From contig CANQQJ010000019.1 of the NCBI GenBank assembly GCA_947625905.1, positions 1-62,141 on the forward strand: a DNA stretch of 62,141 nucleotides. Direction: 5' to 3'. Shown piece by piece: positions 20,183 to 40,672 of this stretch (position 1 is its first letter; each line of letters starts with the position of its first letter). Made by a program: the position numbers and the translations under genes. The stretch comes from an uncultured Clostridia bacterium. GTDB taxonomy: Bacteria > Bacillota > Clostridia > Monoglobales > Monoglobaceae. The notes under the pieces were generated by a model that did no database searches, was not told the origin of the DNA, and was given only the letters and a program-made list of their open reading frames with translations.

Positions 20183-20224
20183 AACATAGGTACTAGAGAT
20201 TAGGTACTAGGAAATAGGAACTAG
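20183..20224 (+). repeat. TAG-heptad array 2
   Basis: Six contiguous 7-bp units: AACATAG, GTACTAG, AGATTAG, GTACTAG, GAAATAG, GAACTAG. Every unit ends in TAG. It is bracketed by two inverted ACCCCTCTC modules. Confidence 0.85.
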
Positions 20225-20226
20225 GA

Positions 20227-20274
20227 ACCCCTCTCAGTCACCTTCGGCGCCAGCTCTCCCCAAGGGGCGAGCCT
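20227..20274. repeat. Repeat module, ACCCCTCTC family (forward copy)
   Basis: It starts ACCCCTCTCAGTC and ends CTCTCCCCAAGGGGCGAGCC, with an inner GGCGCC palindrome. See the partner at 20117-20182. Confidence 0.7.
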
Positions 20275-20323
20275 AATTCCTGCGTCCGCGGGGATATGCG
20301 AATGATTTTTGTCAAATCATCAT

Positions 20324-20351
20324 GTAATCGCTATTCCCTAGTCCCTACGTT
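20324..20351 (-). repeat. TAG-heptad array 3, supplies stop codon of response regulator
   Basis: On the minus strand the units are AACGTAG, GGACTAG, GGAATAG, CGATTAC. The TAG of the first unit is the stop codon of the response regulator gene (20345-20347). Confidence 0.8.
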
Positions 20352-21028
20352 GCGAACCTATAGCCCGCGCCCCAGACGGTTTCTATAAACTTCTCGTCGG
20401 TGTATTTCTCAAGCTTGTCTCGGACGCGCTGGACATGCACCGTCACGGTGGACGAGTCGCCTATGGCGTCCATGCCCCAGACGCGGTCGAACAGCCGGTC
20501 CTTGCTGAACACGATGTTAGGGTTCTCAAGCAGGAACAACAGCAGATCATACTCCTTGACCGTGAGTATGATCTCATTTTTTCCCGCAAAGACTCTGCGC
20601 GAATCCTTGTCGATTGTGAGACCTTTGATACTGAGCTCTTGCGACCTTTTCTCGCCGCCCGACTTAAGCGCCTTATATCTGGCGGTGTGCGCCTTGACCC
20701 GCGCCACCATTTCGGATGGCGAGAACGGCTTTGCTATGTAGTCGTCGGCGCCAAGGCCGAGGCCCTTTATTTTGTCGACGTCCTCCGACCTCGCCGAGAG
20801 AAATATAACGGGCACGTCTTTCGCCTTTCTCAGCTCCTCGCAGACCGAGAACCCGTCCAGCCTCGGCAGCATTATGTCGATTATGATTAGATCGTAGTCG
20901 CCCTTCAGCGCCTTTTCAAGGCCGCTCTCGCCGTCGAAGGCCAGCTCGCAGCGGAATCCCGCGGCGATAAGATAATCCCGCTCAAGCTCGGCAATGCTCC
21001 TGTCGTCTTCTATGATCAAAATTTTCAT
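20345..21028 (-). CDS. OmpR-family response regulator
   Basis: The 227-residue protein has a receiver domain with phosphoacceptor Asp51 ('LIIIDIMLPRLDG'), acidic pair 'IEDD' and Lys near 100 ('DYIAKPF'). A winged-helix DNA-binding domain follows ('TVKEYDLLLFLLENPN', 'VTVHVQRVRDKLEK'). ATG at 21028 is chosen because GGAAG lies before it. It follows the histidine kinase gene with almost no gap. The last codon and stop fall inside a heptad repeat array. With the kinase and ABC transporter upstream it forms a four-gene unit, so it probably controls that transporter. Confidence 0.93.
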   Translation of the reverse strand: MKILIIEDDRSIAELERDYLIAAGFRCELAFDGESGLEKALKGDYDLIIIDIMLPRLDGFSVCEELRKAKDVPVIFLSARSEDVDKIKGLGLGADDYIAKPFSPSEMVARVKAHTARYKALKSGGEKRSQELSIKGLTIDKDSRRVFAGKNEIILTVKEYDLLLFLLENPNIVFSKDRLFDRVWGMDAIGDSSTVTVHVQRVRDKLEKYTDEKFIETVWGAGYRFAT

Positions 21029-21029
21029 A

Positions 21030-22166
21030 TTATTTCTTCCTTTCACCTATAGAGCTTTTATCCGAAATTTTCAGTCTGATATACACGGTGACGCCCGCCT
21101 TCTCGCCGTTGCTCCTGAGCCACATGCGTCCGCCGTGCTCGCGCACGATCCTGTCGCATATCGAGAGCCCGAGCCCGTTGCCCGAGACATTCATGTTCCT
21201 CGCCTTGTCCGCGCGGTAGAATGTCTCAAACACCCGCTTTTCCTCATCCTCGCTTATGCCGATCCCGCTGTCGGAAAAGGCGATAACCGCGAAGCCGCCG
21301 TCGCGGCTCACCGTTATGCCGAGGCTGCCGCGCTCGTTCGGAATTTTATATTTTATCGCGTTTTCTATCACGTTTGAAAACACTCTTTTCATCTTGGCCC
21401 GATCAAAGGCGGCCGTAAGATGCTCGCCTCCGAGCGACGGTGAGATCTCCGCATTCTTCAAGTCGATCTCATATTCTTTGAGCATCTCGGCCGCGAAATC
21501 CAAAATATCACGGTCCTCTATGTCGTATTCCGCGGCGGCGCTCAGCTTTGAGTAGAGCGACAGATTGTTCACCATGTTTTCAAGCGTGTCGGTCTTGGCA
21601 AGGATAGTGTCGAGGTACCGCCTTGTCATGGCCGGATTCGCCGCAACGCCGTCGCGCAGTCCCTCGACGTAGCCCTTGATCGAGGTTATGGGCGTCTTTA
21701 AGTCGTGGGAGATGTTGGCGATAAGCATTCGATGCTCCTCTTCTCTCGTTATCTCGTCGCTGACCGAAAGCTTGAGCCTGAGGCGCAGCCTTTCGATAGC
21801 GTCAAAAACCTCTCTGATCTCGCCGTCGCCCGAGCTTAGCACCTCGTAGTCAAGGTCGCCGCTCGTCAGGTGCTCCATAGCCTCCGACATGCCTTTGAGC
21901 GGGCGGAGTATCGTTTTGGTCAAATAGGCCGTGACACCCGCGCAGCAGCCCGCGACAACGATGATCAGCACGATTATCCAAAGCATGGCGTAGCGCCTCA
22001 GTATGGGATTATAAAGAGTCGGCGCGAGGCCCTTTATCTCAATGGCGACGCCCGGGAAATACCCCGCCAGCAGCACCAAAATAAACGCCGATATCAGCGC
22101 CATAAGAAAAACCGGCAGCACCAGCATTATTATTGACGAGATAAAGAACTTAGTTTTGACCGACAA
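21030..22166 (-). CDS. Sensor histidine kinase
   Basis: The 378-residue protein has two membrane segments (about residues 9-35 and 60-85) with a short extracytoplasmic loop of about 25 residues. A HAMP-like region, the H-box 'NISHDLKTPITSIKGY', the N-box 'VIENAIKYK' and the G-boxes 'DSGIGIS' and 'GNGLGLSICDRIV' follow. The small outer loop suggests sensing within the membrane or through the ABC transporter, as in antibiotic-peptide sensing modules. TTG at 22166 is the start, with AAAGGAG 6 nt before it. Confidence 0.92.
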   Translation of the reverse strand: MSVKTKFFISSIIMLVLPVFLMALISAFILVLLAGYFPGVAIEIKGLAPTLYNPILRRYAMLWIIVLIIVVAGCCAGVTAYLTKTILRPLKGMSEAMEHLTSGDLDYEVLSSGDGEIREVFDAIERLRLRLKLSVSDEITREEEHRMLIANISHDLKTPITSIKGYVEGLRDGVAANPAMTRRYLDTILAKTDTLENMVNNLSLYSKLSAAAEYDIEDRDILDFAAEMLKEYEIDLKNAEISPSLGGEHLTAAFDRAKMKRVFSNVIENAIKYKIPNERGSLGITVSRDGGFAVIAFSDSGIGISEDEEKRVFETFYRADKARNMNVSGNGLGLSICDRIVREHGGRMWLRSNGEKAGVTVYIRLKISDKSSIGERKK

Positions 22167-22212
22167 TTTTTGCTCCTTTACATTCGCTTTAACACCGTGT
22201 GTACGGCAGGCG

Positions 22213-22330
22213 ACACCTCATCCGACTTTTTGCCCGTTTGGGCAAAAACCCACCTTCCCCTCAAGGGGAAGGCAAGAGAGGCTTCCCCTTGAGGGGAAGC
22301 TGTCAGACGCAGTCTGACTGATGAGGTGTT
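22213..22330. repeat. 118-bp MITE-like element, copy 1
   Basis: Ends GACACCTCATC and GATGAGGTGTT form an inverted repeat. The inside holds a large palindrome of CTTCCCCTCAAGGGGAAG type and a TTGCCCGTTTGGGCAA hairpin. A second copy of the same length is at 40673-40790. It encodes nothing. It is directly followed by CACCCTACGTT, the reverse complement of a heptad-like AACGTAG start. Confidence 0.8.
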
Positions 22331-22351
22331 CACCCTACGTTAAAATTTCAC

Positions 22352-23098
22352 TTACGCCTCTTTAAATCTGAACGCGTAGTACCCGATCGCGGTGAACGTC
22401 AGGGCGTAGGCTATCATCAAAAGCGCCTTGAACGACGCCGCCAAAAACGGCATGCCTCCGCCCAAGAATATCTTGTGCCACTGCATATACCCCGTGAACA
22501 TCAAACCTCCGAGGCTGCTGAAGCGTATTCCCGCGATCTTCAAGCCCGCGTATACTATTATACACAAAAACATTGCCATTGTCGAGCTTTTTGTGAACTG
22601 ATTTATCATCACAGCCATCAGAATAACGACCAGCATCGGGAACGCGTCCAGGATATAGGCGCCAAGCGCGTAGCCGAGACTTACGATCTTGTGCGACACT
22701 ATAAGGTCCGCGGCGCAGGACACAATAAACACCGCGAGCATATTTATCAGCGCCAAAGCGAACACCGACACGACCTTGCCGACAAATATCTTGTATCTGT
22801 GGCACGGGCGCGCCAGGACCGCTCTGATCGTTCGGTCGCGGAACTCGGCCGAAAACAGCTCGCACGCCGCCATGATCGAAATAAAAGGGATCACCGCCTC
22901 AAAAAACAGGCTCATAAGGCTCATTGAGGTGTTTATGCCGTTCAATGTGAACACGCCGTCCGACACGCGCGAGGTCAGCAGCTTGACGCAGACGGCGCCG
23001 CCGCAGATTATCAGCTCGATAATAAGAAACACGATATATTTTTTTCGGCTCAGCAGCTTGTCCGTCTCGTTTTTAATATTAGCTATTATTCCGTTCAT
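22352..23098 (-). CDS. ABC-2 type transporter permease
   Basis: The 248-residue protein has six hydrophobic segments. A cytoplasmic 'ELFSAEFRDRTIRAVLARPCHR' segment is typical of ABC-2 permeases of the bacitracin/lantibiotic immunity type. It pairs with the ATPase encoded just upstream, with a 20-bp overlap. The substrate is unknown; a linked two-component system suggests a role in envelope stress or peptide resistance. Confidence 0.85.
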   Translation of the reverse strand: MNGIIANIKNETDKLLSRKKYIVFLIIELIICGGAVCVKLLTSRVSDGVFTLNGINTSMSLMSLFFEAVIPFISIMAACELFSAEFRDRTIRAVLARPCHRYKIFVGKVVSVFALALINMLAVFIVSCAADLIVSHKIVSLGYALGAYILDAFPMLVVILMAVMINQFTKSSTMAMFLCIIVYAGLKIAGIRFSSLGGLMFTGYMQWHKIFLGGGMPFLAASFKALLMIAYALTFTAIGYYAFRFKEA

Positions 23099-23840
23099 GA
23101 TATCCTCCTTCGCCGTGCCCGGTCACCGACAGAAAATAATCCTCAAGCGACGGGTGGTTTTCAAGTATGTCTTTCATATCCGCGCGGGCCGGGATCTGTC
23201 CGCCGTGGATAACCGCGGCTTTGTCGCACACCTTCTCAAGCTCGGCCGCGATGTGCCCCGCGATCAGAAAGGCGGCTCCCTCGCGCTCGGCCATATCGCG
23301 GATAACTCCGCGCAGGTGCACGACGCCCTCAATATCAAGCCCGTTGGTGGGCTCGTCAAGTATAACGAGCTTCGGTCTTGACAAAAACGCCAGCGCCAGA
23401 CCCAGCCTCTGCTTCATGCCCAGCGAGAACCGCCCCGCCTTGTCGCCCGCGTACTCGCTCAGATTCACAAGCTCGAGCACCTCGTCGATCCTCCGCTCGC
23501 CGGCTCTGCCTCTCAGCTCGGGATAAAATCTCGCCGCAAGACGCAGATTTTTTCGGGCGCTCATGTTCTCATACACGGCGGGCGCCTCGATCAGCGCGCC
23601 CACGCCCCGCATCGCCGCCTCGAAGTCGGTGTCTATGTCTGCGCCGAACACGCGTATCTCGCCCGCGTCAATACCGCACATGCCGCATATCGCCTTCATG
23701 GTGGTGGTCTTGCCGGAGCCGTTCGGCCCCAGCAGTCCCATTATCTCGCCTTCCTTGAGTTCCAGTGAGATGTCACGCACGCCCCTGCCGTTTCGGTAGA
23801 GCTTACGCATGTTCCTGATTGATAAAACTGTCTTTGGCAT
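23079..23840 (-). CDS. ABC transporter ATP-binding protein
   Basis: The 253-residue protein carries Walker A 'GPNGSGKTTT', the signature 'FSLGMKQRLGLA', Walker B 'LVILDEPTNGLD' and a late His in 'AGHIAAELE'. It is close to the BcrA/lantibiotic-protection subgroup. It is the first gene of the ATPase-permease-kinase-regulator series on this strand. The permease starts inside its 3' end. Confidence 0.93.
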   Translation of the reverse strand: MPKTVLSIRNMRKLYRNGRGVRDISLELKEGEIMGLLGPNGSGKTTTMKAICGMCGIDAGEIRVFGADIDTDFEAAMRGVGALIEAPAVYENMSARKNLRLAARFYPELRGRAGERRIDEVLELVNLSEYAGDKAGRFSLGMKQRLGLALAFLSRPKLVILDEPTNGLDIEGVVHLRGVIRDMAEREGAAFLIAGHIAAELEKVCDKAAVIHGGQIPARADMKDILENHPSLEDYFLSVTGHGEGGYHERNNS

Positions 23841-23875
23841 TGTTTTTTCCCTTTCTTTTATTTCATTCCTATTTG

Positions 23876-24090
23876 CCTCGCCCCAAACAGTGAACGGGAC
23901 GCCGAGGTCTCATAGAGCAAAATCGTTAATAATTTGTGGCCTTGTTTGTGTCTGCAAACGAAATACTTTTGCTAAACGAACCCGCTGCGCGGCTCCGGCC
24001 ATAGTCGTCCCCTACGACCGTAGTTTGCAAAATGCCGTAGGGGCGGACGACTCGGCCGCCCGTTTGCCTCGCCCCAAGGGGCGAGCCTGA
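23876..24090. repeat. Intergenic region with palindromic repeat modules
   Basis: The gap holds a CCCCTACG...CGTAGGGG inverted repeat (24010-24045) and a CTCGCCCCAAGGGGCGAG palindrome (24067-24084). The same parts occur near 20117, 20255 and 36220. I see no gene in it. Confidence 0.6.
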
Positions 24091-24092
24091 TT

Positions 24093-24551
24093 TTACGGGC
24101 CGTAGGATAAATTGATCTCCGAAACCGCGCCGTCTTCGGTCTTAAACCTCACCCATGTTCCTCTGTCGATAAATCCGAACTCGTTTTCGGGCAAATCAGC
24201 GATTTGCTTTCGGCCGCGATACGCCTTTTTGACTTTATCCGCACTGTCACCGACGCCGACTTTGCCGCGGCAGAACCGATACTTCGGGTCGGTAACCGAG
24301 ACCGACAGAGCGCGGCAGCCTCCGCCGTCCGTCTTTTCGGCGCGTATCTCGTAGCCGTCCATTGGTATTAAAACAATGCCGTCCGATATTTCGGTCGCGG
24401 AACCCATATTTTCCTCCGCGAGTTCAGCCGATACGCCGCCGGGTTCAAGTGCGGCAAAATAATCGTCGCTATCCGTTAGCGCAAAATATCCTCCGACCGC
24501 CGCAAACGCCATCGCGATTATCAATACCGCACAGAATATGAATTTTTTCAT
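24093..24551 (-). CDS. Small exported protein of unknown function
   Basis: The 152-residue protein has an N-terminal signal or anchor segment (residues 4-25). The rest is a compact domain with 'VGVGDSADKVKKAY' and a closing 'VRFKTEDGAVSEINL', a pattern seen in small extracytoplasmic lipid- or cofactor-binding-like folds. I do not recognise a named family. It starts 3 nt after the stop of the preceding exported protein gene, so the two are coupled. Confidence 0.65.
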   Translation of the reverse strand: MKKFIFCAVLIIAMAFAAVGGYFALTDSDDYFAALEPGGVSAELAEENMGSATEISDGIVLIPMDGYEIRAEKTDGGGCRALSVSVTDPKYRFCRGKVGVGDSADKVKKAYRGRKQIADLPENEFGFIDRGTWVRFKTEDGAVSEINLSYGP

Positions 24552-24554
24552 TCA

Positions 24555-25505
24555 CTAATCCTCAATATCATCGCCGCTTACTTCAACGCTTTCGGTCTTG
24601 ACGTAGTTCGGCAGGTCGCGCACATTTTGGTACTCCTCGGGATTCACGGGGTCGATCTTGGTGGTGCCGTAGCCGCCCGCGGTGAGACTCAGAGTAAAGC
24701 ACAGATCGTGGGCGCCATTGTTCTCGTCATAACCCGTGACCGTTACCTTGCCGTCAAAAGCCGTGATCCTGTCGCGGTCGTCAAGCGTCACATTGCCGCA
24801 CACGTTGTTGATATACGGCTCGTTTTGATTGATCATCATGTTGTTCATTACGGCGCCCATATCGCCGCCCGCGTCAAACATTCCGTCCCGGCGGGAGCCC
24901 GCGCATATAAACGAGAACGCGGCCGTCATATACTTGGGCAGCTGCTCGCCCGACATATTGAGGCTGTAGGTGCGGCTTGCGCCGTCGGTCTGCGCCAGCA
25001 CGATATTGTTCTTGATATCGCCCACAAGCACGTCGCTCAATGTCTCGACAAAATTCACTCCTTTGTCAAACATCTCATCGTCGATGTCGAAAAAAGTTCC
25101 GTCGCCGCTGTCAGGATACATGAGTTTATCCACTTGTTTTTCGCCGTTATCATACGCGACGTATTTGCTGTAAACATATCTGTCGCCGTTCTGCTCAGTC
25201 ACCTCATACACATCTTGAACGCCATCCAAGTTAGCGTAGCTTTCTCTCATGTAGGTTTGAGCCTCGCCGTTTTTGTCAAGCTTGTATGTCATCTCGCTCG
25301 CGCAGCCGATACTCGCTCCGTCGAGCGACACGTCCGCATTCACGTTCATTGTAAAGTTGTCCTGATAGAGCAGGCTCTTTACTCCGTTTTTGATCGCCGC
25401 GTAACCGCCCGCGTTGTCGTAGTTGGCGAAGACCGCCATGCTGAGTATCAGCAGCGCGGCGCAGACGCACAGCGCCGCCCGAAGCTTTCTGTTTTTCCTT
25501 TTCAT
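24555..25505 (-). CDS. Exported protein of unknown function
   Basis: The 316-residue protein starts with a signal peptide or anchor (residues 8-27). The rest is rich in Asp, Asn and Tyr with a predicted beta-rich fold ('FTMNVNADVSLDGASIG', 'YVYSKYVAYDNGEKQV'). It resembles LolA/LppX-like shells by general look only. A GTGAGG site precedes the ATG. It is encoded upstream of, and coupled to, the small exported protein, and close to the ABC transporter and two-component genes on the same strand. Confidence 0.65.
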   Translation of the reverse strand: MKRKNRKLRAALCVCAALLILSMAVFANYDNAGGYAAIKNGVKSLLYQDNFTMNVNADVSLDGASIGCASEMTYKLDKNGEAQTYMRESYANLDGVQDVYEVTEQNGDRYVYSKYVAYDNGEKQVDKLMYPDSGDGTFFDIDDEMFDKGVNFVETLSDVLVGDIKNNIVLAQTDGASRTYSLNMSGEQLPKYMTAAFSFICAGSRRDGMFDAGGDMGAVMNNMMINQNEPYINNVCGNVTLDDRDRITAFDGKVTVTGYDENNGAHDLCFTLSLTAGGYGTTKIDPVNPEEYQNVRDLPNYVKTESVEVSGDDIED

Positions 25506-27427: not shown

Positions 27428-30400
27428 TTATTTGATTTTATACGGGTCTGTGAGAGGCTCGATCTCGCTGAGACCGTTCCATACATAGGCGAACACAACA
27501 TCGCCATCGCCGTACGCGATCGGGATGTTTACATCGACCGTTCCGCCTTCCTCGGCGTTAATATCGCCGATGCCTACCGCGGTCATCACGCCGTCCGCGT
27601 TGTAAGCCGCGACAAGCAGCTTGTTGTCCGCGCCCGCGTCAAAGTTCTTTGTGATATTGACATTGACGCTTCTCGTCTCACCCTCGACCGACGGCGTTAC
27701 GCTGTTGATCGTGTAAGCGTACTCGGGAGACGGATTTTCCGTCGGCGTCTCGGTCGCGGCAGGCTCGGGTTCGCTTGACGCATAGCCTACATAAACATTG
27801 TCGATTCCCAACACATTTGCAGAGCTTCCGCGAGTCGAACATCCAAATCCGGTCGGAGCCAACGCGGGAACATCACCCTTCTTTGTTCCCGAGCCGAGAA
27901 TGAACGTGTTTCTCTTTGTATATGCGCCGCCTGCGGGCTTGGTGTAGATCGTCACGCTGTTATCAGCTTTGACGTATTCCGCTTTAATGCCGTACCACTT
28001 ATCCTTTTCAAAGGTAAAGCCCGCAACATCCTGATCAAGGCCCTTGGTATCGCTGCTTCCCTTTGAGAAGTAGTCGCTGAATTTCAGATTGCCCGTACCG
28101 GTCTTTACCTCAAAGGCCCTGCCGTCTGATTTATCGGTATACGTATTGTTCATGCTCACGTTATTTGCGTCAAAGAATCTCAGAAGCACCGTGTCTTTGT
28201 CGGCGTCGCCCATTTTAAACTCTTCCTCCACAACGATAAGCTCGGAGTCGATCGGGCTTTCGGGCGTGTATGTCCAGCCGTCCTGACCGCTGCCCTTGTC
28301 GTCGATCGCGAAATAGTTATCTCCGTCGCTCCTAATCGCAATCGAAGGAGCTGTATTTTTTGTGCCGTAATTCACGGTCAGCGCCTTGCCGTTTTCGTTT
28401 GTGATCTTCGCGTCGTTTTCATATGTTGTTCCCGCGTTTACATTATTGAAGTTCCATGTCTCTCCCTTCATGGGGATCGGAGTTGGCGTGGGCGTCGGCG
28501 CAAGTGTTGGCGGCGGAGGCGCGGGCGTCGAGTTGTTTACGCAGTCGGATCTGTAGAGAACCTTGCCGACTCTCGGCGACCATGTGACATTCCCCGAGGC
28601 TGTCGAGCCGATCTCGACTCTTGAGAACGTGGTAACGTCTATCGGGATATCGCTGATTATGTATCCGTTTTCGCCCGTCTCATCCATCAGGCGCAGTTCG
28701 GCTTTTTTGTTTTTAAGGTCGGCGCTGAGCGTTATCGTCCAGGTCGAAGCGCTGCGGGCCGTAATGTTCGGGCCTCCGACCACCTTTCCGGTTTTAACGG
28801 CGGTTTTCGACTTGGCTCCGGTATAATACTGGACCTCCTGCGCTCCTTTTTCCGTGTATTCCTGACTGATTCCCAGCAGCACCTTGCCGTAGTAGTCAAG
28901 GAACTCGATGTGGTGGGTATACGCTCTGCCGGTCCAGCTCCAATTATTCGACGCATCCTTAACGCCGCCCGTGTTGTATGTCATCTCAAATGTCATATTG
29001 CCGCCGTCCGACATATCAAAGCCGCCGCCGAATTTTCTGCCGCCGTCGGCGCTGTCCTGTGTGAAGGTCCACTGTCCGCCGCTGAACGAAAGCGCAGCTC
29101 CCTCGCCGCCGCTGTATACGAATTTTTCGCCGTTTGCATCCTTATCGCTGTCGTATACATAGTCTATGGCTTCCAATTCGATCTTAAGATCGGGTGAGCC
29201 GTTCTCGGCGACAGTCAGCTTGCCTGTCTTTGTGTTATATTTTCTGCATACGGCGGTGTAGTCATACTCGCCGGTGCGGAGCTTTATGGTTATTTTGCCG
29301 TCCGCTCCGCTCTTGACGGTCTTTTTGTTTATCGTGACCGCCGCGCCCGACACGGGGCTGCCGCTGCTTGTTACCGTGATAACGCTGTCGGGGATCTCAA
29401 CGAGCCGGATAGATTGAGTGTTTGTCTGTCCGGCAACGACAGTTATCTCGCCGGAGGCAAGGTTATAGCTTTCGGAATCCGCCGTGTATGTATATGTTCC
29501 CGCCGGGATTCTGAGCGAGACAACGCCGTTTTTGTCCGTGACCTTGCTTGCTCCGCCGACGCTCACGCTGACACCCTCCGCGGGATTGCCCTCCATATCC
29601 GTCACAGTGAACACAACCTCGGGATCAGGCTCCTTGACATAGATATTCGGCTGAACATATTCCGAAAGCTCTTTGTCATAGCCTATATAATAGCTTTGGT
29701 GAGGCGGCTGGTTATACGCGGTGTTCTGCCACGCTATAGCGCAGCGGTACTGGCTGTCGTGCATAAACGTTGTGAATTTATAATCGCTCGGCGTAAGTGA
29801 TGTGAATACTCTGAGCGCCGTGTTGTCGCTGTGCCTCAGCACAAGCTCCTCGCGCCAGTCGCCGAACAGATCCGCCTGAAGGCAGGGAACAGCCTTGGTG
29901 CTGTTGTTTGTGGAAACTGGATTTGAAGTCCATGTCGACCAGATACGGCTGAGACCGCCCTTGTTTATCAACGGATTGCCGTTTTTATCAGAAGCGGGCT
30001 GTTTATTGTAGTCATTTACCCTATATTCGCCGTCGTTCCATTTGCTCAGTCTGCCTTCGCTGAAATGCTCTCTGCACAGATCGCCGTCCCAATAGATCGC
30101 GAAGTTGGGATACTGTCCGTCCTGCACGCTGACCAGCTCATTTCTCGCGTTGTATGAACCGAAATTAACTATCTCGCCGCTCAGCGTTCTGGCGTTAAGG
30201 CCGGAGTCCCATGCCAGCACGCCGTACTGCTTGCTGAAATAGTCCATGATGCCTCGGCCGTCGTCGTCGGTGGTGGTCTCGTGCCAGATGATCTTGCCGT
30301 CGGGGCCGTTTATGAACACTCTGCCCCAAGTCGGACTGTCCTCCAGGACTTTGAAGACCTCCTGCTCGCCGTCATTGTCAAAGTCGGACACGTGCAGCGC

Positions 30401-31678
30401 GTCGCCGTGGCCCAGCTTTCTGCCGCTTGAGTTCTTTGCCGACCACAAAACTTTGCCGTTGTCGTCAAGCGCCGCCGAGCCGTAAATTATCTCGTCCTTG
30501 CCGTCGTTATCGAGATCGGCGACCGAAAGATTATGGTTGCCCTGACCGTAGAAATCATTGCTCGAGCTGCTCGTGCTGTCGATTATCCAGCTCTGCTTCA
30601 GGTCTTTTCCGTCCCACGTGTAGGCGGCGACAACAGATTTTCCGTAATATCCGCGGCACTCGATCAAGCTGGGATGCACGCCGTCAAGATACGCGGTTCC
30701 GGCCAAATATCTGTCCGAACGGTTATAATCGCTGTCTCCCCAGTCGCGCACGTTTCCGACCGGCGCGTGATAGTTTATCGTTTGCATTGCCGCGCCGCTC
30801 TCTCCGTTAAATATGGTGAGATACTCGGGACCGCCCGTTATATGGCCGTTTGAGCCTATATAGCTTGCCTCGTTGTCGGTGTTCCTGATCTCGTCGGTAT
30901 TTCCGGCATCGGACACGTAATTGCCCCTGCCGTCGATCGAGCCGGGAGCGGTCTTGACCGCCATCTCGGCCTTGCCGTCTCCGTCGTAGTCAAAAACCTG
31001 AAACTGAGTGTAGTGCTGGCCGGCTCTGATGTTTCTGCCAAGATCGATCCGCCAAAGCATTGTGCCGTCCATCTCATAACAATCAAGATACACGCGGTCG
31101 GTAACGCCGCCGGAGGCGCTGTCTTTGGCGTCATCGGGTTCCCATTTGAGTATTATCTCGTATTCGCCGTCGCCGTCCACATCGCCCACCGAGGCGTCGT
31201 TCGCCTCATAGCTTCCGGCGGTGTTAAGCGGCGGTATCTGCACGGGAATGTCAAAATAGGCGTAGGGCGAATCTTTCCAACTACTGTCTCGATTTCCGTT
31301 CAGCATCGGGAACTCTTCGCTTTTCGCGCCCTCGACGCCGTTTATTACAGGAGCCACCGCGTATTTGTCGTTCGCGGTTCCCGCGGGGTCGGTGTAATTT
31401 GTAAGCTCACAGCTCTCAACCAAAACCGCGCCGTTTTTGTATATCTTAAATGTCGTGTCCATCGGCTCGGTGCCCAAAAGGCGCCAGCTTAAATAAACTC
31501 CGCCGCCATAGGTCAGGTTCGCCGCGAACCCTCCGCGGTTCAGGTACTCCATTTGTCTTGCCCCGGGGCCGGCCGCGGCCTGCGCCGTGCCGTCATCCGT
31601 CTCGCCTGCCGCGAAAACCGGAAGCGCGGCGATCACCATGCACAGCGCCAATACGATACTCAATAACCTTTTCTTCAT
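27428..31678 (-). CDS. Secreted multidomain rhamnogalacturonan lyase (PL11)
   Basis: The 1416-residue protein has a signal peptide (residues 1-23) and a PL11 catalytic beta-propeller (about 40-640). The propeller shows repeated 'DVDGDGEYEIILKW'-type and 'DNDGKDEIIYG'-type calcium loops and 'GRNIRAGQHYTQFQVFDYDG'. Two carboxypeptidase-regulatory-like beta domains (about 660-830) follow, then a jelly-roll-like module, a Pro/Thr linker (about 1065-1090), a second jelly-roll-like module and a C-terminal beta domain that is also found in the neighbouring lyase. PL11 enzymes cut the rhamnose-galacturonate backbone of rhamnogalacturonan I by beta-elimination. The extra modules probably bind carbohydrate. 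No cell-wall anchor is seen, so the enzyme is released or held by unknown contacts. Confidence 0.92.
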   Translation of the reverse strand: MKKRLLSIVLALCMVIAALPVFAAGETDDGTAQAAAGPGARQMEYLNRGGFAANLTYGGGVYLSWRLLGTEPMDTTFKIYKNGAVLVESCELTNYTDPAGTANDKYAVAPVINGVEGAKSEEFPMLNGNRDSSWKDSPYAYFDIPVQIPPLNTAGSYEANDASVGDVDGDGEYEIILKWEPDDAKDSASGGVTDRVYLDCYEMDGTMLWRIDLGRNIRAGQHYTQFQVFDYDGDGKAEMAVKTAPGSIDGRGNYVSDAGNTDEIRNTDNEASYIGSNGHITGGPEYLTIFNGESGAAMQTINYHAPVGNVRDWGDSDYNRSDRYLAGTAYLDGVHPSLIECRGYYGKSVVAAYTWDGKDLKQSWIIDSTSSSSNDFYGQGNHNLSVADLDNDGKDEIIYGSAALDDNGKVLWSAKNSSGRKLGHGDALHVSDFDNDGEQEVFKVLEDSPTWGRVFINGPDGKIIWHETTTDDDGRGIMDYFSKQYGVLAWDSGLNARTLSGEIVNFGSYNARNELVSVQDGQYPNFAIYWDGDLCREHFSEGRLSKWNDGEYRVNDYNKQPASDKNGNPLINKGGLSRIWSTWTSNPVSTNNSTKAVPCLQADLFGDWREELVLRHSDNTALRVFTSLTPSDYKFTTFMHDSQYRCAIAWQNTAYNQPPHQSYYIGYDKELSEYVQPNIYVKEPDPEVVFTVTDMEGNPAEGVSVSVGGASKVTDKNGVVSLRIPAGTYTYTADSESYNLASGEITVVAGQTNTQSIRLVEIPDSVITVTSSGSPVSGAAVTINKKTVKSGADGKITIKLRTGEYDYTAVCRKYNTKTGKLTVAENGSPDLKIELEAIDYVYDSDKDANGEKFVYSGGEGAALSFSGGQWTFTQDSADGGRKFGGGFDMSDGGNMTFEMTYNTGGVKDASNNWSWTGRAYTHHIEFLDYYGKVLLGISQEYTEKGAQEVQYYTGAKSKTAVKTGKVVGGPNITARSASTWTITLSADLKNKKAELRLMDETGENGYIISDIPIDVTTFSRVEIGSTASGNVTWSPRVGKVLYRSDCVNNSTPAPPPPTLAPTPTPTPIPMKGETWNFNNVNAGTTYENDAKITNENGKALTVNYGTKNTAPSIAIRSDGDNYFAIDDKGSGQDGWTYTPESPIDSELIVVEEEFKMGDADKDTVLLRFFDANNVSMNNTYTDKSDGRAFEVKTGTGNLKFSDYFSKGSSDTKGLDQDVAGFTFEKDKWYGIKAEYVKADNSVTIYTKPAGGAYTKRNTFILGSGTKKGDVPALAPTGFGCSTRGSSANVLGIDNVYVGYASSEPEPAATETPTENPSPEYAYTINSVTPSVEGETRSVNVNITKNFDAGADNKLLVAAYNADGVMTAVGIGDINAEEGGTVDVNIPIAYGDGDVVFAYVWNGLSEIEPLTDPYKIK

Positions 31679-31692: not shown

Positions 31693-31727
31693 AACGTAGT
31701 GATTAGTAATTAGTGAATAGCGATTAG
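31693..31727 (+). repeat. TAG-heptad array 4
   Basis: Five contiguous units: AACGTAG, TGATTAG, TAATTAG, TGAATAG, CGATTAG. It fills the short gap between the two lyase genes and touches the ribosome binding site (AGGAGG on the minus strand) of the downstream lyase gene. Confidence 0.9.
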
Positions 31728-34925: not shown

Positions 34926-36143
34926 TTAATCCACTAAAACCGGGTCATGATCTTCCTTCCACGGTAGGCCGAACCTGTTGAGGCCTTCCATAAACGGGTC
35001 GGGGTCCATTTCCTCAACGTTATGGACGCCGGGCTCCTTCCATTTTCCGGTCAGCACCATTGCCGCTCCTATCATGGCGGGCACCCCTGTGGTGTATGAG
35101 ACCGCCTGCGAGCCGACTTCTCTGTAACACTCTTGGTGGTCGCAAATGTTATACAAATAATAGTTCTTGTCTTTGCCGTCCTTTTTGCCGCGGAAGATGC
35201 AGCCGATGTTGGTCTTGCCCACCGTCCTCGGGCCCAGCGACGCGGGGTCGGGCAGCACGGCCTTTAAAAACTGCAGCGGCACTATCTCTCTGCCCTCGTA
35301 CATGATCGGCTCGATCGAGGTCATGCCGACGTTTTCGAGGCACTTTAAATGCGTCAGATAGCTTTGGCCGAAAGTCATAAAGAAACGTATGCGCTTTATG
35401 CCTTTGATGTTGAGTCCCAGCGACTCAAGCTCCTCGTGGTGGAGCAGATACATATCTTTTTTGCCGACGCCCTCGAAGTCATACTCGCGCTTTATCTCCA
35501 TCGGCTTTGTCTCGATCCACGTTCCGTTTTCCCAATAGCTGCCGTTTGCCGACACCTCGCGGATGTTTATCTCGGGATTGAAGTTGGTGGCGAACGGATA
35601 GCCGTGGTCGCCGCCGTTGCAGTCTAAGATATCTATATAATTGATCTCATCAAACTCGTGCTTCATGGCGTACGCCGAAAAAACTCCGGTCACGCCCGGG
35701 TCAAAGCCGCTGCCCAATATGGCTGTCAGCCCCGCTTTCTCGAACTTTTCGCGGTAGGCCCACTGCCATTTGTACTCAAATTTCGCCGTGTCCGGAGGCT
35801 CGTAGTTGGCGGTGTCAAGATAGTGGACGCCCGACCTTAAGCACGCTTCCATGATCGACAAGTCCTGATAAGGCAGAGCCAGATTTATAACGATCTCGGG
35901 GCGGTACATACCGATGAGCTCGGTCAGCTCGTCAACGTTGTCGGCGTCGACCCGCGCGGTCTCGATATTTGTCTTGCCGCCGAATTTTTTCATGTATTCC
36001 TCACAGCTCTGTTTGAGCCTGTCGCACTTTGATTTGGTGCGGCTTGCTATCATGATGTCGGTAAACACCTCGTGATTTTGGCAGCACTTGTGCGCCGCCA
36101 CGCCGGCAACTCCGCCGGCTCCGATAATTAAAGCTCTGCTCAT
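34926..36143 (-). CDS. Carboxynorspermidine synthase (saccharopine dehydrogenase-like)
   Basis: The 405-residue protein starts with a Rossmann motif 'ALIIGAGGVAGVAAHKC' and carries 'INLALPYQDLSIMEACLRSG', 'YLDTANYEPPDTAKFEY' and 'GSGFDPGVTGVFSAYA', all typical of carboxy(nor)spermidine dehydrogenase. It condenses a diamine with aspartate semialdehyde using NADPH. The decarboxylase partner NspC is at 18295-19419. It stands downstream of speE and speB with a repeat-filled gap between. An AGGAGG site precedes the ATG, directly next to a heptad array. Confidence 0.92.
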   Translation of the reverse strand: MSRALIIGAGGVAGVAAHKCCQNHEVFTDIMIASRTKSKCDRLKQSCEEYMKKFGGKTNIETARVDADNVDELTELIGMYRPEIVINLALPYQDLSIMEACLRSGVHYLDTANYEPPDTAKFEYKWQWAYREKFEKAGLTAILGSGFDPGVTGVFSAYAMKHEFDEINYIDILDCNGGDHGYPFATNFNPEINIREVSANGSYWENGTWIETKPMEIKREYDFEGVGKKDMYLLHHEELESLGLNIKGIKRIRFFMTFGQSYLTHLKCLENVGMTSIEPIMYEGREIVPLQFLKAVLPDPASLGPRTVGKTNIGCIFRGKKDGKDKNYYLYNICDHQECYREVGSQAVSYTTGVPAMIGAAMVLTGKWKEPGVHNVEEMDPDPFMEGLNRFGLPWKEDHDPVLVD

Positions 36144-36156
36144 TTAAGTTCCTCCT

Positions 36157-36184
36157 AACGTAGTGATTAGTGATTAGTGAATAG
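36157..36184 (+). repeat. TAG-heptad array 5
   Basis: Units AACGTAG, TGATTAG, TGATTAG, TGAATAG. The flank CCTCCT before AACGTAG is the minus-strand ribosome binding site of the carboxynorspermidine synthase gene and is the same as at array 4. Confidence 0.9.
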
Positions 36185-36299
36185 TTTTCCCCCCTCAGTC
36201 GGGCAAAGCCCGACAGCTCCCCCGAGGGGACGTCGAGGGCGCCGTCCCCTACGAATTTGGTGCCATACTTGTTGTAGGGGCGGATATTATCCGCCCGTA
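36185..36299. repeat. Palindromic modules between speB and carboxynorspermidine synthase
   Basis: The gap contains GTCGGGC/GCCCGAC, TCCCCTACG...TGTAGGGGC and GGGCGGAT/ATCCGCCC palindromes, members of the same families as at 20092, 24010 and 8956. No gene or promoter is evident. Confidence 0.7.
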
Positions 36300-37175
36300 T
36301 CACATGGCTATCAGCATTTCTCTTAATATTTTGCAGGCGGCTGCGGTGCTGGCGCCGCTCGGGTCGAGGTCCGGGGCAAGCTCCACGATGTCGCAGCCCG
36401 CTATGTTGAGCCCGCCGCAGATCTTTATGACCGCCTCCTGAAGCTCCGAATAGCTAACGCCGCCCGGCTCGGGTGTCCCCGTCCCCGGGAATACCGACGG
36501 GTCAAGCACATCAAGGTCCAGCGTGAAATACACCGGATATCCGCGCAGCTTTTCGATCAGCTCGTCAAGGCCGCCTAGGTCAAACTTATGAAGATTCGTA
36601 TGATCCTCCGCCCATTCAAACTCCTGTTTTTCGCCGCTGCGTATGCCGAACTGATAAATCTTTTTGTCGCCCAAAAGCTCGGCGCACCGTCTGATGACCG
36701 TGGCGTGGCTCAGCTTGACGCCGAACAGCTCGTCTCGAAGGTCGGTGTGCGCGTCGATATGTATCATTCTGAGATTTAAGCCGAATTTTTCGCGGCACGC
36801 CTCGACGGCGCCCAGAGTGACCAGATGTTCTCCGCCTATCATAAGCGGGACCTTGCCCGCCCCGCATATGGCGGAAGTCTGACCCTTTATCATTTCAATA
36901 GCCGCCTCGGTGTCGCCGAGGGGCAGCTCAAGATCTCCGCAGTCGCAGACTTTTTTATCCTCCAGATCGCCGTCCTGATACGGACTGTAGGTCTCAAGCG
37001 CCCACGAGTCGGCGCGCATGGACTGAGGCGCGAATCTCGAACCCGGACGGAACGACGCGGTCGAGTCAAAGGGCGCGCCAAACAGACAGATGTCAGCCTT
37101 GTCGGGCGTCTTGTCGCAGCCGATAAACTTTGTCACGCTCTGCGCGATATTATTCTCGCCGTTATTTTCAAGCAT
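36300..37175 (-). CDS. speB: Agmatinase
   Basis: The 291-residue protein is a ureohydrolase. Mn-binding motifs are 'GGEHLV', 'HIDAHTDLRD' with 'SHATVIRR', and 'DLDVLDPSVFPGTGTPEPGG'. It splits agmatine to putrescine and urea. It overlaps speE by 8 bp. No arginine decarboxylase gene is in the window, so agmatine must come from a gene elsewhere. Confidence 0.94.
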   Translation of the reverse strand: MLENNGENNIAQSVTKFIGCDKTPDKADICLFGAPFDSTASFRPGSRFAPQSMRADSWALETYSPYQDGDLEDKKVCDCGDLELPLGDTEAAIEMIKGQTSAICGAGKVPLMIGGEHLVTLGAVEACREKFGLNLRMIHIDAHTDLRDELFGVKLSHATVIRRCAELLGDKKIYQFGIRSGEKQEFEWAEDHTNLHKFDLGGLDELIEKLRGYPVYFTLDLDVLDPSVFPGTGTPEPGGVSYSELQEAVIKICGGLNIAGCDIVELAPDLDPSGASTAAACKILREMLIAM

Positions 37176-38016
37176 TGTTAAGCAGCTCCTTCACATAATT
37201 GGGCAGGGCGAAACAGCCCTTGTGCAGTTCGGTGTTGTAGTATTTTGTCTTAAGCCCCAGCGCGTCCCATCTCTCCGCGTCGAAATCCGCGACAGGGTCA
37301 AAATGGTCGGACGCGAAGCCGAAAAGCCAATGCCCCGACGGATACGTGGGGATATGCGCCTGATACAGTCTGTGCACATTGAACACGCCTTTTATGCGGT
37401 GGTGGGTGCGCATAAGCGATTCGGCGTAATCGTCATAATACGGACTTTCGTGCTGGTTAACCAAAATGCCGCCGTCTCTCAGCGCTCGGGAGCAGTTTCC
37501 GTAAAATTCCCGCGTGAACAGTCCCTCGCCGGGGCCGAATGGGTCGGTGGAATCGACTATTATCAGGTCGTACTTGTTCCTGCACGAGCGTATGAACCGG
37601 AGCCCGTCCTCAAAATGTATATTCACGCGCGGATCGTCAAGCCCCGCGGTCAGTTTCGGGAAAAACCGACGGCAGACCTCGGTGACCTCTCGGTCTATCT
37701 CGACGAGGTCAACGCTTTCGATCGACTTGTACATAACGAGACGGTTCACGGTGCCTCCGTCGCCGCCGCCGATAACCAGAACCTTTTTTATCTCGGGGTT
37801 TACCGCCATCGGCACATGCACTATCATCTCATGATATATGAACTCGTCTTTTTCCGCCACCATCATCAATCCGTCAAGCGTCAGAAACGTGCCGAATTCC
37901 TCGGATGTCATGACGTCAATGCGCTGAAACTCGGTCTCCGCGCTGTATAACTGCTTGTCAACCCTGACCGAGAAGCGCACGTCGCGGCTGTGGTTTTCCG
38001 AATACCATAATTCCAT
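37168..38016 (-). CDS. speE: Spermidine synthase (aminopropyltransferase)
   Basis: The 282-residue protein has the SpeE fold with 'VLVIGGGDGGTVNRLV' (dcAdoMet pocket) and 'DSTDPFGPGEGLF'. It moves an aminopropyl group to putrescine, which needs decarboxylated AdoMet from SpeD; no speD is seen here. ATG at 38016 is chosen over a TTG at 38022 because AAAGGA is better spaced. A strong promoter (TTGATT, 17 nt, TATAAT) stands at 38119-38091. The presence of the carboxynorspermidine route next door makes its real product uncertain. Confidence 0.92.
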   Translation of the reverse strand: MELWYSENHSRDVRFSVRVDKQLYSAETEFQRIDVMTSEEFGTFLTLDGLMMVAEKDEFIYHEMIVHVPMAVNPEIKKVLVIGGGDGGTVNRLVMYKSIESVDLVEIDREVTEVCRRFFPKLTAGLDDPRVNIHFEDGLRFIRSCRNKYDLIIVDSTDPFGPGEGLFTREFYGNCSRALRDGGILVNQHESPYYDDYAESLMRTHHRIKGVFNVHRLYQAHIPTYPSGHWLFGFASDHFDPVADFDAERWDALGLKTKYYNTELHKGCFALPNYVKELLNNA

Positions 38017-38090
38017 TTTCAATATCCTTTCGCCGCCCGTTCGCGGCGCGAACGAAACGTCCGATTAATTTTGCTGTTATTATTCAATTT

Positions 38091-38119
38091 ATTATATCAT
38101 AAAATTTTCCGCAAATCAA
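38091..38119 (-). promoter_or_regulatory. Promoter of the speE-speB operon
   Basis: On the minus strand TTGATT (38119-38114) and TATAAT (38096-38091) have a 17-nt spacer. The leader carries a CGTTCGCG/CGCGAACG-type palindrome just before the ribosome binding site. Confidence 0.75.
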
Positions 38120-38258
38120 GTAAAATAAATCCCGATTTGCCGTATATCGGATCGTTTACAAAAAATTAAAATTTCGCGAAAACAACGTTTTGACGGGATA
38201 TCAAAGCCGTTAATAAAACGAGGGGCGCTCAAGGCTCAAATTTTATTTATTATAACTA

Positions 38259-38286
38259 TTGAAATTATTTTAAATTATGGTAAAAT
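38259..38286 (+). promoter_or_regulatory. Promoter of ddl-murI operon
   Basis: TTGAAA (38259-38264) and TAAAAT (38281-38286) are separated by 16 nt. The rest of the gap to speE (38120-38258) shows nothing else recognisable. Confidence 0.6.
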
Positions 38287-38335
38287 AGTATGAGTATCTA
38301 AGACTTGATCAGACGCTCTATGAAAGGATGATTGT

Positions 38336-39394
38336 ATGGCAAAGAAAAATGTGTGCGTGGTGTTCGGAGGGGTTTCGAGCGAGCACGACATAAGCAAAAT
38401 ATCGGCGGCGACTGTTATCGATTTGCTTGACAAAAGCAAATATGAAATACATAAGATTTTTATAGACAAGGCGGGCAACTGGGTATATTTTGACAGCGGC
38501 GACATATGGGCCGACGCGAACGATTCGGCGGTCGAAAAATTCGACAGAGCCGTGATATCGCCCTCAAGAAACGACGGTGGCATCCTGCGCTTTAAAAAGG
38601 ACGGCGCGGTCGAGACGATAAAGATCGACGCCGCCGTTCCGGTCCTCCACGGAAAGAACGGCGAGGACGGCACGATCCAGGGTCTGTTTGAGATAGCGGG
38701 CATACCTTATGTTGGTTCGGGAGTTCTGGGCAGCGCGGTCTGCATGGACAAATGCGTGGCGAAGATCCTTTTCAAAGAGGCGGGGATCCCCCAGGCCGAT
38801 TGGATAACCGTCAAGTACGGCGAGGAGCTCGATGTCCGCGAAATCGAGGAAAAGCTGGGCTATCCCTGCTTCATCAAGCCGTCGAACGCGGGCTCGTCCG
38901 TCGGGATCAGCAAGGCCCACAGCCGCGAGGAATTGATCGAGGGCGTCAAACTTGCGTTTGAGCATGACTACAAGGTCCTCATCGAGGAATATATAAACGC
39001 GTCGGAGACCGAGAGCGCCGTGCTGGGCAACTTTGATCCGGTCATTGCCGACAAAATCGGCGAGATCGCGCCAGCCAATGATTTCTACGACTTTGACGCG
39101 AAGTACAACAGCAGCGACTCGGTCCTGACAATACCCGCCGAGGTCGACAAAGACGTTGAGAAAAAACTCAAAGACTACGCGCTCTCGGCTTATAAGATCT
39201 GCGAGTGCAGAGGACTGTCGCGCGTTGACTTTTTTGTTGACAAACAAAACGGCCGCGTGATACTCAACGAGATCAACACGCTGCCCGGCTTCACATCCAT
39301 AAGCATGTATCCCAAACTTTGGGAGGCGAGCGGCCTCAGCGGCACAGAGCTTCTTGACAAACTGATCGAGCTCGCCGAGACCCGCCGCGGATAA
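38336..39394 (+). CDS. ddl: D-alanine--D-alanine ligase
   Basis: The 352-residue ATP-grasp enzyme begins 'VCVVFGGVSSEHDISKISA'. It has 'VPVLHGKNGEDGTIQGL', 'FIKPSNAGSSVGISK' and 'NEINTLPGFTSISMYPKLW'. In the omega loop the sequence is Phe-Tyr-Asp-Phe-Asp-Ala-Lys-Tyr; the final Tyr marks D-Ala-D-Ala and not D-Ala-D-lactate specificity. It makes the peptidoglycan dipeptide in the cytoplasm. An AAAGGA site precedes the ATG. murI follows within 16 nt, so both serve cell-wall precursor supply. Confidence 0.95.
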   Translation: MAKKNVCVVFGGVSSEHDISKISAATVIDLLDKSKYEIHKIFIDKAGNWVYFDSGDIWADANDSAVEKFDRAVISPSRNDGGILRFKKDGAVETIKIDAAVPVLHGKNGEDGTIQGLFEIAGIPYVGSGVLGSAVCMDKCVAKILFKEAGIPQADWITVKYGEELDVREIEEKLGYPCFIKPSNAGSSVGISKAHSREELIEGVKLAFEHDYKVLIEEYINASETESAVLGNFDPVIADKIGEIAPANDFYDFDAKYNSSDSVLTIPAEVDKDVEKKLKDYALSAYKICECRGLSRVDFFVDKQNGRVILNEINTLPGFTSISMYPKLWEASGLSGTELLDKLIELAETRRG

Positions 39395-39409
39395 GAAAAG
39401 GATATGAGC

Positions 39410-40219
39410 ATGGACAACAGACCAATAGGAATATTCGACTCGGGGTTGGGCGGACTGACCTGCGTGCGCGAAGTTATGAACATAATGCCGAGCGAGGACA
39501 TCATTTATTTCGGCGACACCGGACGGGTGCCCTACGGCACGCGAAGCTCCTCGACAATAGTCAAGTATGTCAGGCAGGACATAAACTTCCTCAGGAGCTT
39601 TGACATAAAATTTATAATAATTGCCTGCGGGACCGCCAGCAGCGCGGCTCTGCCCCATATAACCACCGAGTATGACACCGACATAATCGGCGTTGTGGAC
39701 GCGGCCTCAAAACGCGCCGCAAAAGCGACAAAAAACGGCGTCATCGGGGTGCTGGGCACCCGCGGCACCATAAACAGCGGCAAGTACGCCGAGAAGCTAA
39801 TGAAGCTGAACCCCGGATTTAAAGTGATATCCACGGCCTGCCCCATGTTTGTGCCGGTGGTCGAAAACGGATATGCCGACACAAAGATCGCAGAAATGCT
39901 GGCTGAGGAATATCTCGAGGACATAGTGAAAGACGGCGCGGACACGATCATCCTGGGCTGCACCCACTACCCTCTGCTGAGAAAAACGATACAGAAAATC
40001 GCGGGAAGCTCCGTCAGTCTGATCGACTCGGGCGCGGCTGCGGCCGACGACGCGAAAGCCATTATGGAGTCACGGGGACTTCTGACAGGCAGGAGCGAAA
40101 AAGGCCGCGCCAAATACTACGTGAGCGACACGGTCCACGGCTTTGAGGAACTGGGCAGCTTGTTCCTGTCGAAAAAAATCGACGGAGAGGTCGCCAAGAT
40201 CGACATCGAAAAATACTAA
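39410..40219 (+). CDS. murI: Glutamate racemase
   Basis: The 269-residue protein starts 'IGIFDSGLGGLTCVREV' and has the two catalytic Cys regions 'IIACGTASSAAL' and 'ILGCTHYPLL'. It supplies D-glutamate for peptidoglycan. In the first motif the usual Cys-Asn-Thr is Cys-Gly-Thr. The second of two ATG codons (39410) is better spaced from AAAAGG than the first (39404). Confidence 0.94.
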   Translation: MDNRPIGIFDSGLGGLTCVREVMNIMPSEDIIYFGDTGRVPYGTRSSSTIVKYVRQDINFLRSFDIKFIIIACGTASSAALPHITTEYDTDIIGVVDAASKRAAKATKNGVIGVLGTRGTINSGKYAEKLMKLNPGFKVISTACPMFVPVVENGYADTKIAEMLAEEYLEDIVKDGADTIILGCTHYPLLRKTIQKIAGSSVSLIDSGAAAADDAKAIMESRGLLTGRSEKGRAKYYVSDTVHGFEELGSLFLSKKIDGEVAKIDIEKY

Positions 40220-40235
40220 AAGGAGACTGCTTTTT

Positions 40236-40658
40236 ATGAAAGACAACGCGTTTATTTCCATCCGCACCGCTCAGGAGATCGACGGCGATGAGGAAACCAT
40301 CGCTCTCGACACCAGAGGCAGGTACGCCATACGCAACAACAAAATATACATAATATACGACGAGAGCGCCATGACCGGCTTTGAGGACACGACCACCACC
40401 ATAAAGGTCAGCGACGCCGGAGTCAGCGTTTCGCGCAAGGGCAGGTTCTCGTCCAAGATGGATTACAGAAGCGGCGAAAAAAGCCTGTGCCTGGTGAATA
40501 CCCCGTACGGACAGATAGGCGCCGCGGTGACGACCGAGAATATCGACTACAAATTCGGCAAGGACGGCGGCACCCTTAAGATGAACTACCTACTGGACGC
40601 CGACAACCAAAACTTCATCAAAAACAACATGACGGTCAACGTAGAGATTAGTGATTAG
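40236..40658 (+). CDS. DUF1934 protein (YwiB-like)
   Basis: The 140-residue protein has a lipocalin-like beta-barrel pattern ('ALDTRGRYAIRNNKIYIIYDE', 'GQIGAAVTTENIDYKF', 'LKMNYLLDADNQ') that matches the DUF1934/YwiB family. The gene commonly lies before argS, as here. Its last residues 'EISD' and the TAG stop are encoded by a heptad repeat array, so the original C-terminus may have been replaced. An AGGAG site precedes the ATG at 40236. The function is unknown. Confidence 0.85.
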   Translation: MKDNAFISIRTAQEIDGDEETIALDTRGRYAIRNNKIYIIYDESAMTGFEDTTTTIKVSDAGVSVSRKGRFSSKMDYRSGEKSLCLVNTPYGQIGAAVTTENIDYKFGKDGGTLKMNYLLDADNQNFIKNNMTVNVEISD

Positions 40659-40672
40659 AGAATAGCGATTAG
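40638..40672 (+). repeat. TAG-heptad array 6, supplies stop codon of DUF1934 gene
   Basis: Five contiguous units: AACGTAG, AGATTAG, TGATTAG, AGAATAG, CGATTAG. The TAG of the third unit (40656-40658) is the stop codon. A 118-bp MITE-like element starts on the next base. Confidence 0.9.

Follow-up and report, generated by a model that had tools for sequence, protein, structure and literature searches.

We have identified arrays of 7-bp units (heptads), nearly all of them ending in TAG, at six sites of a 62,141-nucleotide stretch of DNA (the window; contig CANQQJ010000019.1) from an uncultured bacterium of the Monoglobaceae. Comparison with related genomes makes it probable that these arrays represent the terminal inverted repeats, in many cases persisting as solo ends, of short, gene-less elements in Monoglobus and some relatives that resemble miniature inverted-repeat transposable elements (MITEs). 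The elements are short, non-coding and multicopy and are bounded by terminal inverted repeats, which are hallmarks of MITEs. No description of these arrays was found among the titles listed in literature searches made without most subscription journals, and element ends built from a tandem heptad array are undescribed in the texts on known systems that were compared.

A dispersed heptad repeat

The window belongs to a genome of 2.96 Mb in 68 contigs (G000). A first-pass annotation of the window had listed six arrays of the pattern NNNNTAG, and six heptad arrays were read at all of its coordinates (Table 1). Runs of at least three TAG heptads number six in the window, as opposed to a mean of 0.01 (largest 1) in 100 order-2 Markov sequences of the window, and runs of at least four number four, as opposed to zero. 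Genome-wide, the four-heptad pattern TAGNNNNTAGNNNNTAGNNNNTAG has 326 overlapping matches in G000 versus 9 for the pattern read backwards. Both the excess over shuffled sequence and the further copies that are expected of a dispersed repeat, as the annotation had supposed it to be, are therefore present. The window and 20 further stretches of G000 (462,141 bases) hold 52 arrays, which scales roughly to 333 per genome; this density is approximate because the 20 stretches were chosen after the match list had been inspected.

Arrays as probable inverted ends of small elements

The orientation of neighbouring arrays was tallied for pairs less than 300 bp apart. In a mostly Monoglobus set, comprising loci L035-L132 and fetched stretches, 39 pairs are convergent (edges outward), 3 are divergent and 51 point in the same direction, while the Roslinia stretches hold 22 convergent, 0 divergent and 6 same-direction neighbours. 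Convergent versus divergent pairs give p = 6e-9 (39:3) and p = 5e-7 (22:0). Fetching by a TAG pattern biases loci L035-L132 towards intact arrays; these loci contribute to the unit profile, to the Monoglobus element lengths and joins, and to the counts of TAC endings, neighbour orientation, orthologous divergence, recombination, placement and in-array stops.

Thirteen aligned Roslinia elements of approximately 184 bp consist of an array, a 114-bp interior and an inverted array. Monoglobus elements measure 119-124 bp and have a hairpin interior, longer pairs holding other modules, and g161, a genus of a different family, contributes four pairs spanning 105-113 bp. Across the three lineages, complete pairs span 105-190 bp. 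When one interior per lineage was compared, those of Monoglobus and Roslinia shared one 17-bp match (E 0.008) plus two 8-bp matches, and that of g161 matched neither. Judged from these sequences, what the three lineages have in common is the end of the element and not its interior. The annotation had suggested a mobile repeat as one possible origin of the arrays, and the pair orientation and the elements of the three lineages support this suggestion. Paired arrays make up 12 of 52 in G000; in the stretches picked around array matches they account for 44 of 79 (Roslinia) and 8 of 23 (g161). Decayed partners are missed in these counts because the finder requires three intact heptads. RNAalifold analysis of the 13 Roslinia elements returned a covariation term of -0.18, with a double change in 4 of 25 pairs, and the outer pairs of the structure are formed by the array ends themselves. 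A search of one Roslinia element for known RNAs returned none up to E 1.

Some Roslinia elements have a more complex structure. In the carA-carB gap (L249 1309-1790), an element is followed by tandem copies of the interior and right array, as if amplified head to tail. The interiors at L252 7502, L253 6701, L261 6203 and L247 15833 break at the same point. This common break leads into a promoter-like stretch, TTGTAAATTGAC ... TATATAAT, that is shared by several Roslinia interiors and is perhaps another inserted repeat.

Array structure and sequence constraint

The standard module has five units (35 bp), the edge AACRTAG being followed by units of the form NNANTAG. The first unit reads AACGTAG or AACATAG; NNATTAG predominates in units 2 and 3 and NNAATAG in unit 4, and the fifth unit is NNA(A/T)TAG or ends in TAC. 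This profile is alike in Monoglobus, Roslinia and g161, in a tally whose unselected set includes the Roslinia and g161 stretches, and there is a subtype with GGACTAG-like units. As annotated, the window arrays at 20324 (minus strand), 31693, 36157 and 40638 start with AACGTAG and that at 20183 with AACATAG, and the fixed left edge holds in 42 of the 52 arrays of G000. Nearly all units do end in TAG, the last units of the arrays at 9056 and 20324 ending in TAC. The number of units varies less than the three to six of the annotation: with a final TAC unit counted, 30 of the 42 AACRTAG-edged arrays in G000 have five units, 10 have four and 2 have six. Such variation is what in-register recombination, or the decay of an array of five units, would leave. 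TAC endings occur in 56 of 244 arrays of a mixed, partly pattern-selected set, and most of them lead into a GCGG...CCGC hairpin.

Tandem 7-bp units, and one G000 array with as many as 12 of them (L213 19894), are what slippage would be expected to leave behind. The arrays have, however, a fixed edge, a modal number of five units and position-specific units, and their variation is confined to fixed heptad positions, so that a simple tandem repeat like other heptanucleotide repeats, already disfavoured, is exceedingly improbable. The STRR (short tandemly repeated repetitive) sequences of cyanobacteria are degenerate heptanucleotide repeats of the slippage type without a fixed edge or inverted pairing; the arrays resemble them in their degenerate heptads and differ in having both of the latter features.

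Orthologous arrays were compared over units 2-4 in 28 clusters (119 pairs, two labels possibly being one species). Heptad positions 1, 2 and 4 differ in 21% of comparisons and positions 3, 5, 6 and 7 (A3 and TAG) in 0.8%, a contrast that is inflated because array detection requires TAG. In syntenic arrays that were not fetched by pattern, A3 is present in 25 of 25 cases at unit 2, unit 3 and unit 4 alike, and a single unit departs from TAG, having TAA instead. Internal units without TAG number 24 of 378, a small sample that includes 3 TAA, 5 TGG and 4 CAG, and 8 of 603 in the pattern-selected set, with no TAA. Since A3 is conserved and TAA is not in excess, sequence recognition of ANTAG would be a likelier constraint than the stopping of translation.

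Placement at gene borders

Gene starts and ends were taken from a purpose-made open reading frame caller and not from annotation. A distance of 11-22 nt separates the array edge from the start codon at 9 of 18 start-facing edges in G000 (0.067 for random intergenic positions), at 33 of 88 in the pattern-selected Monoglobus loci (null 0.051) and at 6 of 17 in Roslinia (null 0.041). The bases ahead of such tight edges are mostly a reverse Shine-Dalgarno site. Other edges lie at gene ends or far from genes, and at L202 3331 and L205 8468 an array is the entire spacer between two genes. With regard to strand, CTA precedes starts and TAG follows stops. No predicted gene of G000 contains an edged array (0 of 42).

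The annotation had read the arrays as all-frame stops, and neighbouring genes do use them in this way. Among 129 edges facing a gene 3' end (33 from Roslinia, 66 and 25 from Monoglobus and 5 from g161, none of the last stopping within the array), 11 have a reading frame that terminates at the first TAG of the array, 6 at the second and 15 at the third, and a further 11 Monoglobus frames end in a TAA whose two As come from the edge. A ribosome arriving from outside meets TAG at whichever end of a pair it enters. It could be argued that ending translation between genes is what the arrays are for, and the annotation had raised gene insulation as a possible role. Stopping as the selected function is nonetheless quite improbable. 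Selection for stopping would let TAA stand in freely for TAG, yet among the 24 lost TAGs TAA shows no excess over TGG or CAG; A3 is conserved although it is useless for stopping, and arrays ahead of start codons show the incoming ribosome CTA rather than TAG. In addition, stop codons in all frames occur in other MITEs, being reported for RUP, the 155-bp Correia element and MITEAba12 (PMC2229807, PMC6382973).

Ten array-ended proteins were checked against domain profiles. For CarA, RecQ, RuvC, Cpn60, a sigma factor, two response regulators and the DUF1934 protein, the last domain profile is complete or nearly so. A deaminase (95/102) and a LysR-type regulator (191/209) stop short of the end of the profile.

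At Monoglobus edges where a T and the AA of the edge together form TAA (for example L199, L082, L077 and L200), the preceding codon is TAY, TGG or TGC in 12 of 12 cases. All of these are one base from a stop codon and perhaps represent a decayed old stop; several of the edges are orthologous.

Distribution and dynamics

A strict array pattern matched 11 of 391 genomes of the class and 3 of 222 genera (control 0). In a separate scan with a strict pattern, the matches listed (at least 98 stretches) carry the names Monoglobus, 'Candidatus Roslinia caecavium' and one Oscillospiraceae metagenome-assembled genome. A looser pattern gave at least one match in 12 of 12 genus members searched, ranging from 326 to 1. 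Among 49 relatives outside the genus, it matched G017 (101), G030 (7), G046 (7) and G058 (2). The matches in G046 are of another sequence; this genome, from another family of the order, contains heptad arrays of a different unit, TAGTTGC/TAGCAAC, at G046:C3:181516 and G046:C8:62137.

All eight of the eight species compared in synteny carry the window arrays at 31693, 36157 and 40638, with the edge at the identical base, while palindromic modules come and go around them. The annotation was correct in placing the arrays close to palindromic modules. That these modules belong to the array is not supported: orthologous sites hold the array alone or the array with modules depending on the species.

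Persistence of this kind could also be the mark of a host cis-element, that is, a dispersed regulatory site for translation, mRNA processing or transcription that is kept at operon joints and placed like the TAACTGA heptamers of Beggiatoaceae. Solo arrays hold their position and their A3 and TAG in eight species, their edges touch Shine-Dalgarno sites, and some fill a whole intergenic spacer, all of which favours such a site. On the other hand, both strands are used, with CTA before starts and TAG after stops, convergent pairs surround lineage-specific interiors, and one nearly array-free genus member has a single copy, and we consider a host cis-element unlikely. The TAACTGA repeats resemble the arrays described here in being intergenic heptad arrays with stop codons in the unit. 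They lie just upstream of start codons, as do some of the present arrays, others of which are found at gene ends or far from genes. They differ in having two to six identical units in one sense, where the present arrays vary at positions 1, 2 and 4, and in lacking inverted pairing (one inverted repeat in 170 sets), and Shine-Dalgarno sites are rare in that system (PMC4679880).

The presence of arrays varies between genomes at the 40638, dnaA and carA sites, with inexact joins. The sole array of G009, a genus member with a complete 2.76-Mb genome, lies between dnaA and rpmH (genes named by eye) at L197 8412-8440. A link to the replication origin, suggested by this array, was rejected, as 0 of 11 other genus members have one there. 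In Roslinia, an array is found at the 3' end of carA, and an element with partial copies in tandem occupies the carA-carB gap. None of the 22 other genomes of the family in which CarA was matched has a gene-strand array there within 900 bp. CarA ends in FDDFLA, FDYFLSD or FDEFLK in eight of those 22 relatives, which places the start of the Roslinia array within a few bases of the CarA stop in these eight. In-register recombination is seen in L080, which is a chimera of two L062 arrays with the intervening modules gone. L055 and L121, as well as L208 and L100, differ by a block with both boundaries at array edges, and arrays are also found nested within arrays.

Two joins were noted in addition. 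The orthologous left joins of L063 and L097 read CCAAC|AACGTAG and CCAAC|GTAG, a 3-bp difference at the edge. At L054 4064, an array starts within an apparent tRNA gene copy (by eye), and a second copy in the locus continues without an array.

Evidence on mobility

Several results weigh against the arrays being ends of MITE-like elements. In Monoglobus-rich loci, same-direction neighbours (51) outnumber convergent ones (39), and most Monoglobus arrays are solo. In g161, 1 of 11 start-facing edges lies 11-22 nt from the start codon (null 0.056) and 0 of 5 stop-facing edges are tight. At least four shared flanking bases, as expected of a target duplication, were found in 0 of 32 complete pairs; three shared bases occurred in 1 of 32, where 0.84 were expected. 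No exact empty site with clean joins was found among the comparisons listed, and the array-bearing and array-free loci L123 and L065 differ by replaced AT-rich sequence and not by a simple insertion. No autonomous copy, or array pair around a transposase, was seen, and the distribution of the arrays is not followed by that of Y1 or IS110 transposases, the two families searched. The weakest point is the strong upkeep of solo arrays, which are intact at orthologous sites in eight species, as would be unexpected for a dead end-repeat. Continued overwriting by other copies, or use by the host, would explain this upkeep. Some transposons make no target site duplication. The missing duplication therefore lowers but does not end the MITE claim, and we use the label MITE-like.

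Two candidate movers were rejected. A resident Y1 (REP/IS200) transposase has 0 copies in G000 and matches in 3 of 13 genomes, with none in 10 of 13. IS110 occurs in 2 of 13 genomes, G009 (3 copies) and G017 (1). The G017 copy is at L254 18289-19868 (Roslinia, G017:C26), where an IS110-family gene with its flanks splits the right-hand array of an element, the heptads breaking off directly ahead of it and continuing directly behind it (by eye). Because it sits within an array, it looks like a later visitor, and this one case suggests that heptad arrays can be IS110 targets. Viral contigs gave 0 matches to the strict pattern, and no match was found between a Roslinia element and plasmids or between a Monoglobus element and phages.

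Proposed mechanism and comparison with known elements

In the MITE-like model, two standard 35-bp ends, each with a terminal AACRTAG and four inner NNANTAG units, would face each other around a lineage-specific interior. Each heptad may be one site of a putative protein that reads A-N-T-A-G every 7 bp and that would move the element by acting at AACRTAG. The final codons of genes and positions immediately 5' of Shine-Dalgarno sites would be where elements land or survive, since a frame that enters either end encounters TAG within 21 nt whatever its phase, at the cost of only a few residues. In-register recombination between direct arrays, together with insertion of other palindromes, would then yield mosaic gaps and solo arrays. 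A broader version is possible but rather doubtful: that these are a new class of mobile-element end, in which an ANTAG-reading protein acts on a 35-bp array that doubles as an outward all-frame stop and settles in last codons or between operon genes, the solo ends being kept by the host as operon spacers. If the MITE-like model is right, numerous gene boundaries in these bacteria were reshaped by elements that carry a stop for each frame at either end, a natural example of mobile DNA that supplies protein ends. ANTAG every 7 bp would then be a clear motif with which to fish for the protein, and long-standing orthologous copies, found together with complete ones that seem younger, would offer material in which to watch decay or co-option.

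A protein that reads every heptad brings to mind an operator or centromere-like array for a ribbon-helix-helix protein with one dimer per heptad. In parS of plasmid pSM19035, one ParB dimer binds each contiguous 7-bp repeat (WATCACW) and at least four repeats are needed (PMC9499535). The contiguous, unspaced heptads described here match this arrangement, and TGATTAG units contain, on the reverse strand, AATCACT, which fits WATCACW. The conserved letters differ, however (CTANT here), and an array of this kind is very improbable. The plasmid repeats serve promoters and partition at six sites, versus hundreds here. PF07764 (omega) gave no match in 19 genomes; as the control gave none either, the result is uninformative.

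With RUP, Correia/NEMIS and MITEAba12, the elements share a length of approximately 100-200 bp, the lack of genes, inverted ends and a mostly intergenic location. They are unlike these families in that the ends are tandem heptads whose two copies are imperfectly matched, and in that no target duplication was found and no partner transposase identified here. The BrickBuilt MITE of Porphyromonas gingivalis likewise contains a tandem repeat, but its 23-nt units lie between a leader and a tail (PMC4596501), whereas 7-bp units make up the ends here. GTAG repetitive extragenic palindromes (REPs) are also dispersed in gaps with neighbours often in opposite orientation (PMC3733652). The arrays differ from them in being direct repeats and not palindromic, with GTAG only within the AACGTAG first heptad, and from REPs with a REP-associated tyrosine transposase (RAYT) in that Y1 transposase is absent in G000.

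Sites in the window

Table 1. Heptad arrays and associated hairpin modules of the window
Position	Strand	Feature	Remark
9016..9055	-	GCGG...CCGC hairpin after the 9056 array; Monoglobus interior module	fold -19.2 kcal/mol
9056..9083	-	four-heptad array, no AACRTAG edge, last unit TAC	sequence reading
20183..20224	+	six-unit array, edge AACATAG, left end of 169-bp convergent pair	
20286..20323		degenerate version of the GCGG hairpin, inside the 169-bp pair	judged by eye
20324..20351	-	array, edge AACGTAG, right end of 169-bp pair	
31693..31727	+	five-unit array, occupies most of a 56-bp gap	
36157..36184	+	four-unit array	
40638..40672	+	five-unit array	present in 8/8 species

The array-hairpin order at 9056 is repeated in L071, and the GCGG...CCGC module also follows many TAC-ended arrays elsewhere; the flanks of this site were not located in fetched stretches of seven relatives. 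No known RNA family was detected in the window at gathering score. The 169-bp pair formed by 20183 and 20324 (minus) encloses another palindrome, and the first TAG of its right-hand array (20345-20347) is the stop codon of a response regulator gene (20345-21028, minus strand). Two relatives are comparable at this site: G007 has a heptad array with a different first unit and G003 has none.

The edge at 31693 adjoins the reverse Shine-Dalgarno site CCTCCT of the gene at 27428-31678 (minus strand), and in G007 and G011 a GTAGGGG palindromic module splits this array. The 40638 array codes for the final residues of a DUF1934 gene, the stop being its third TAG (40656-40658), and it is absent in three more distant genus members (G001, G008 and G009). 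At 36157, the edge adjoins the CCTCCT of the gene at 34926-36143 (minus strand), and a second array is nested inside in G002, G003, G005 and G011. The same gap also holds a palindromic module, CCTCAGTC...AGCTCCCCC, at 36193-36223 and a GTAG-tagged REP-like palindrome at 36274-36296.

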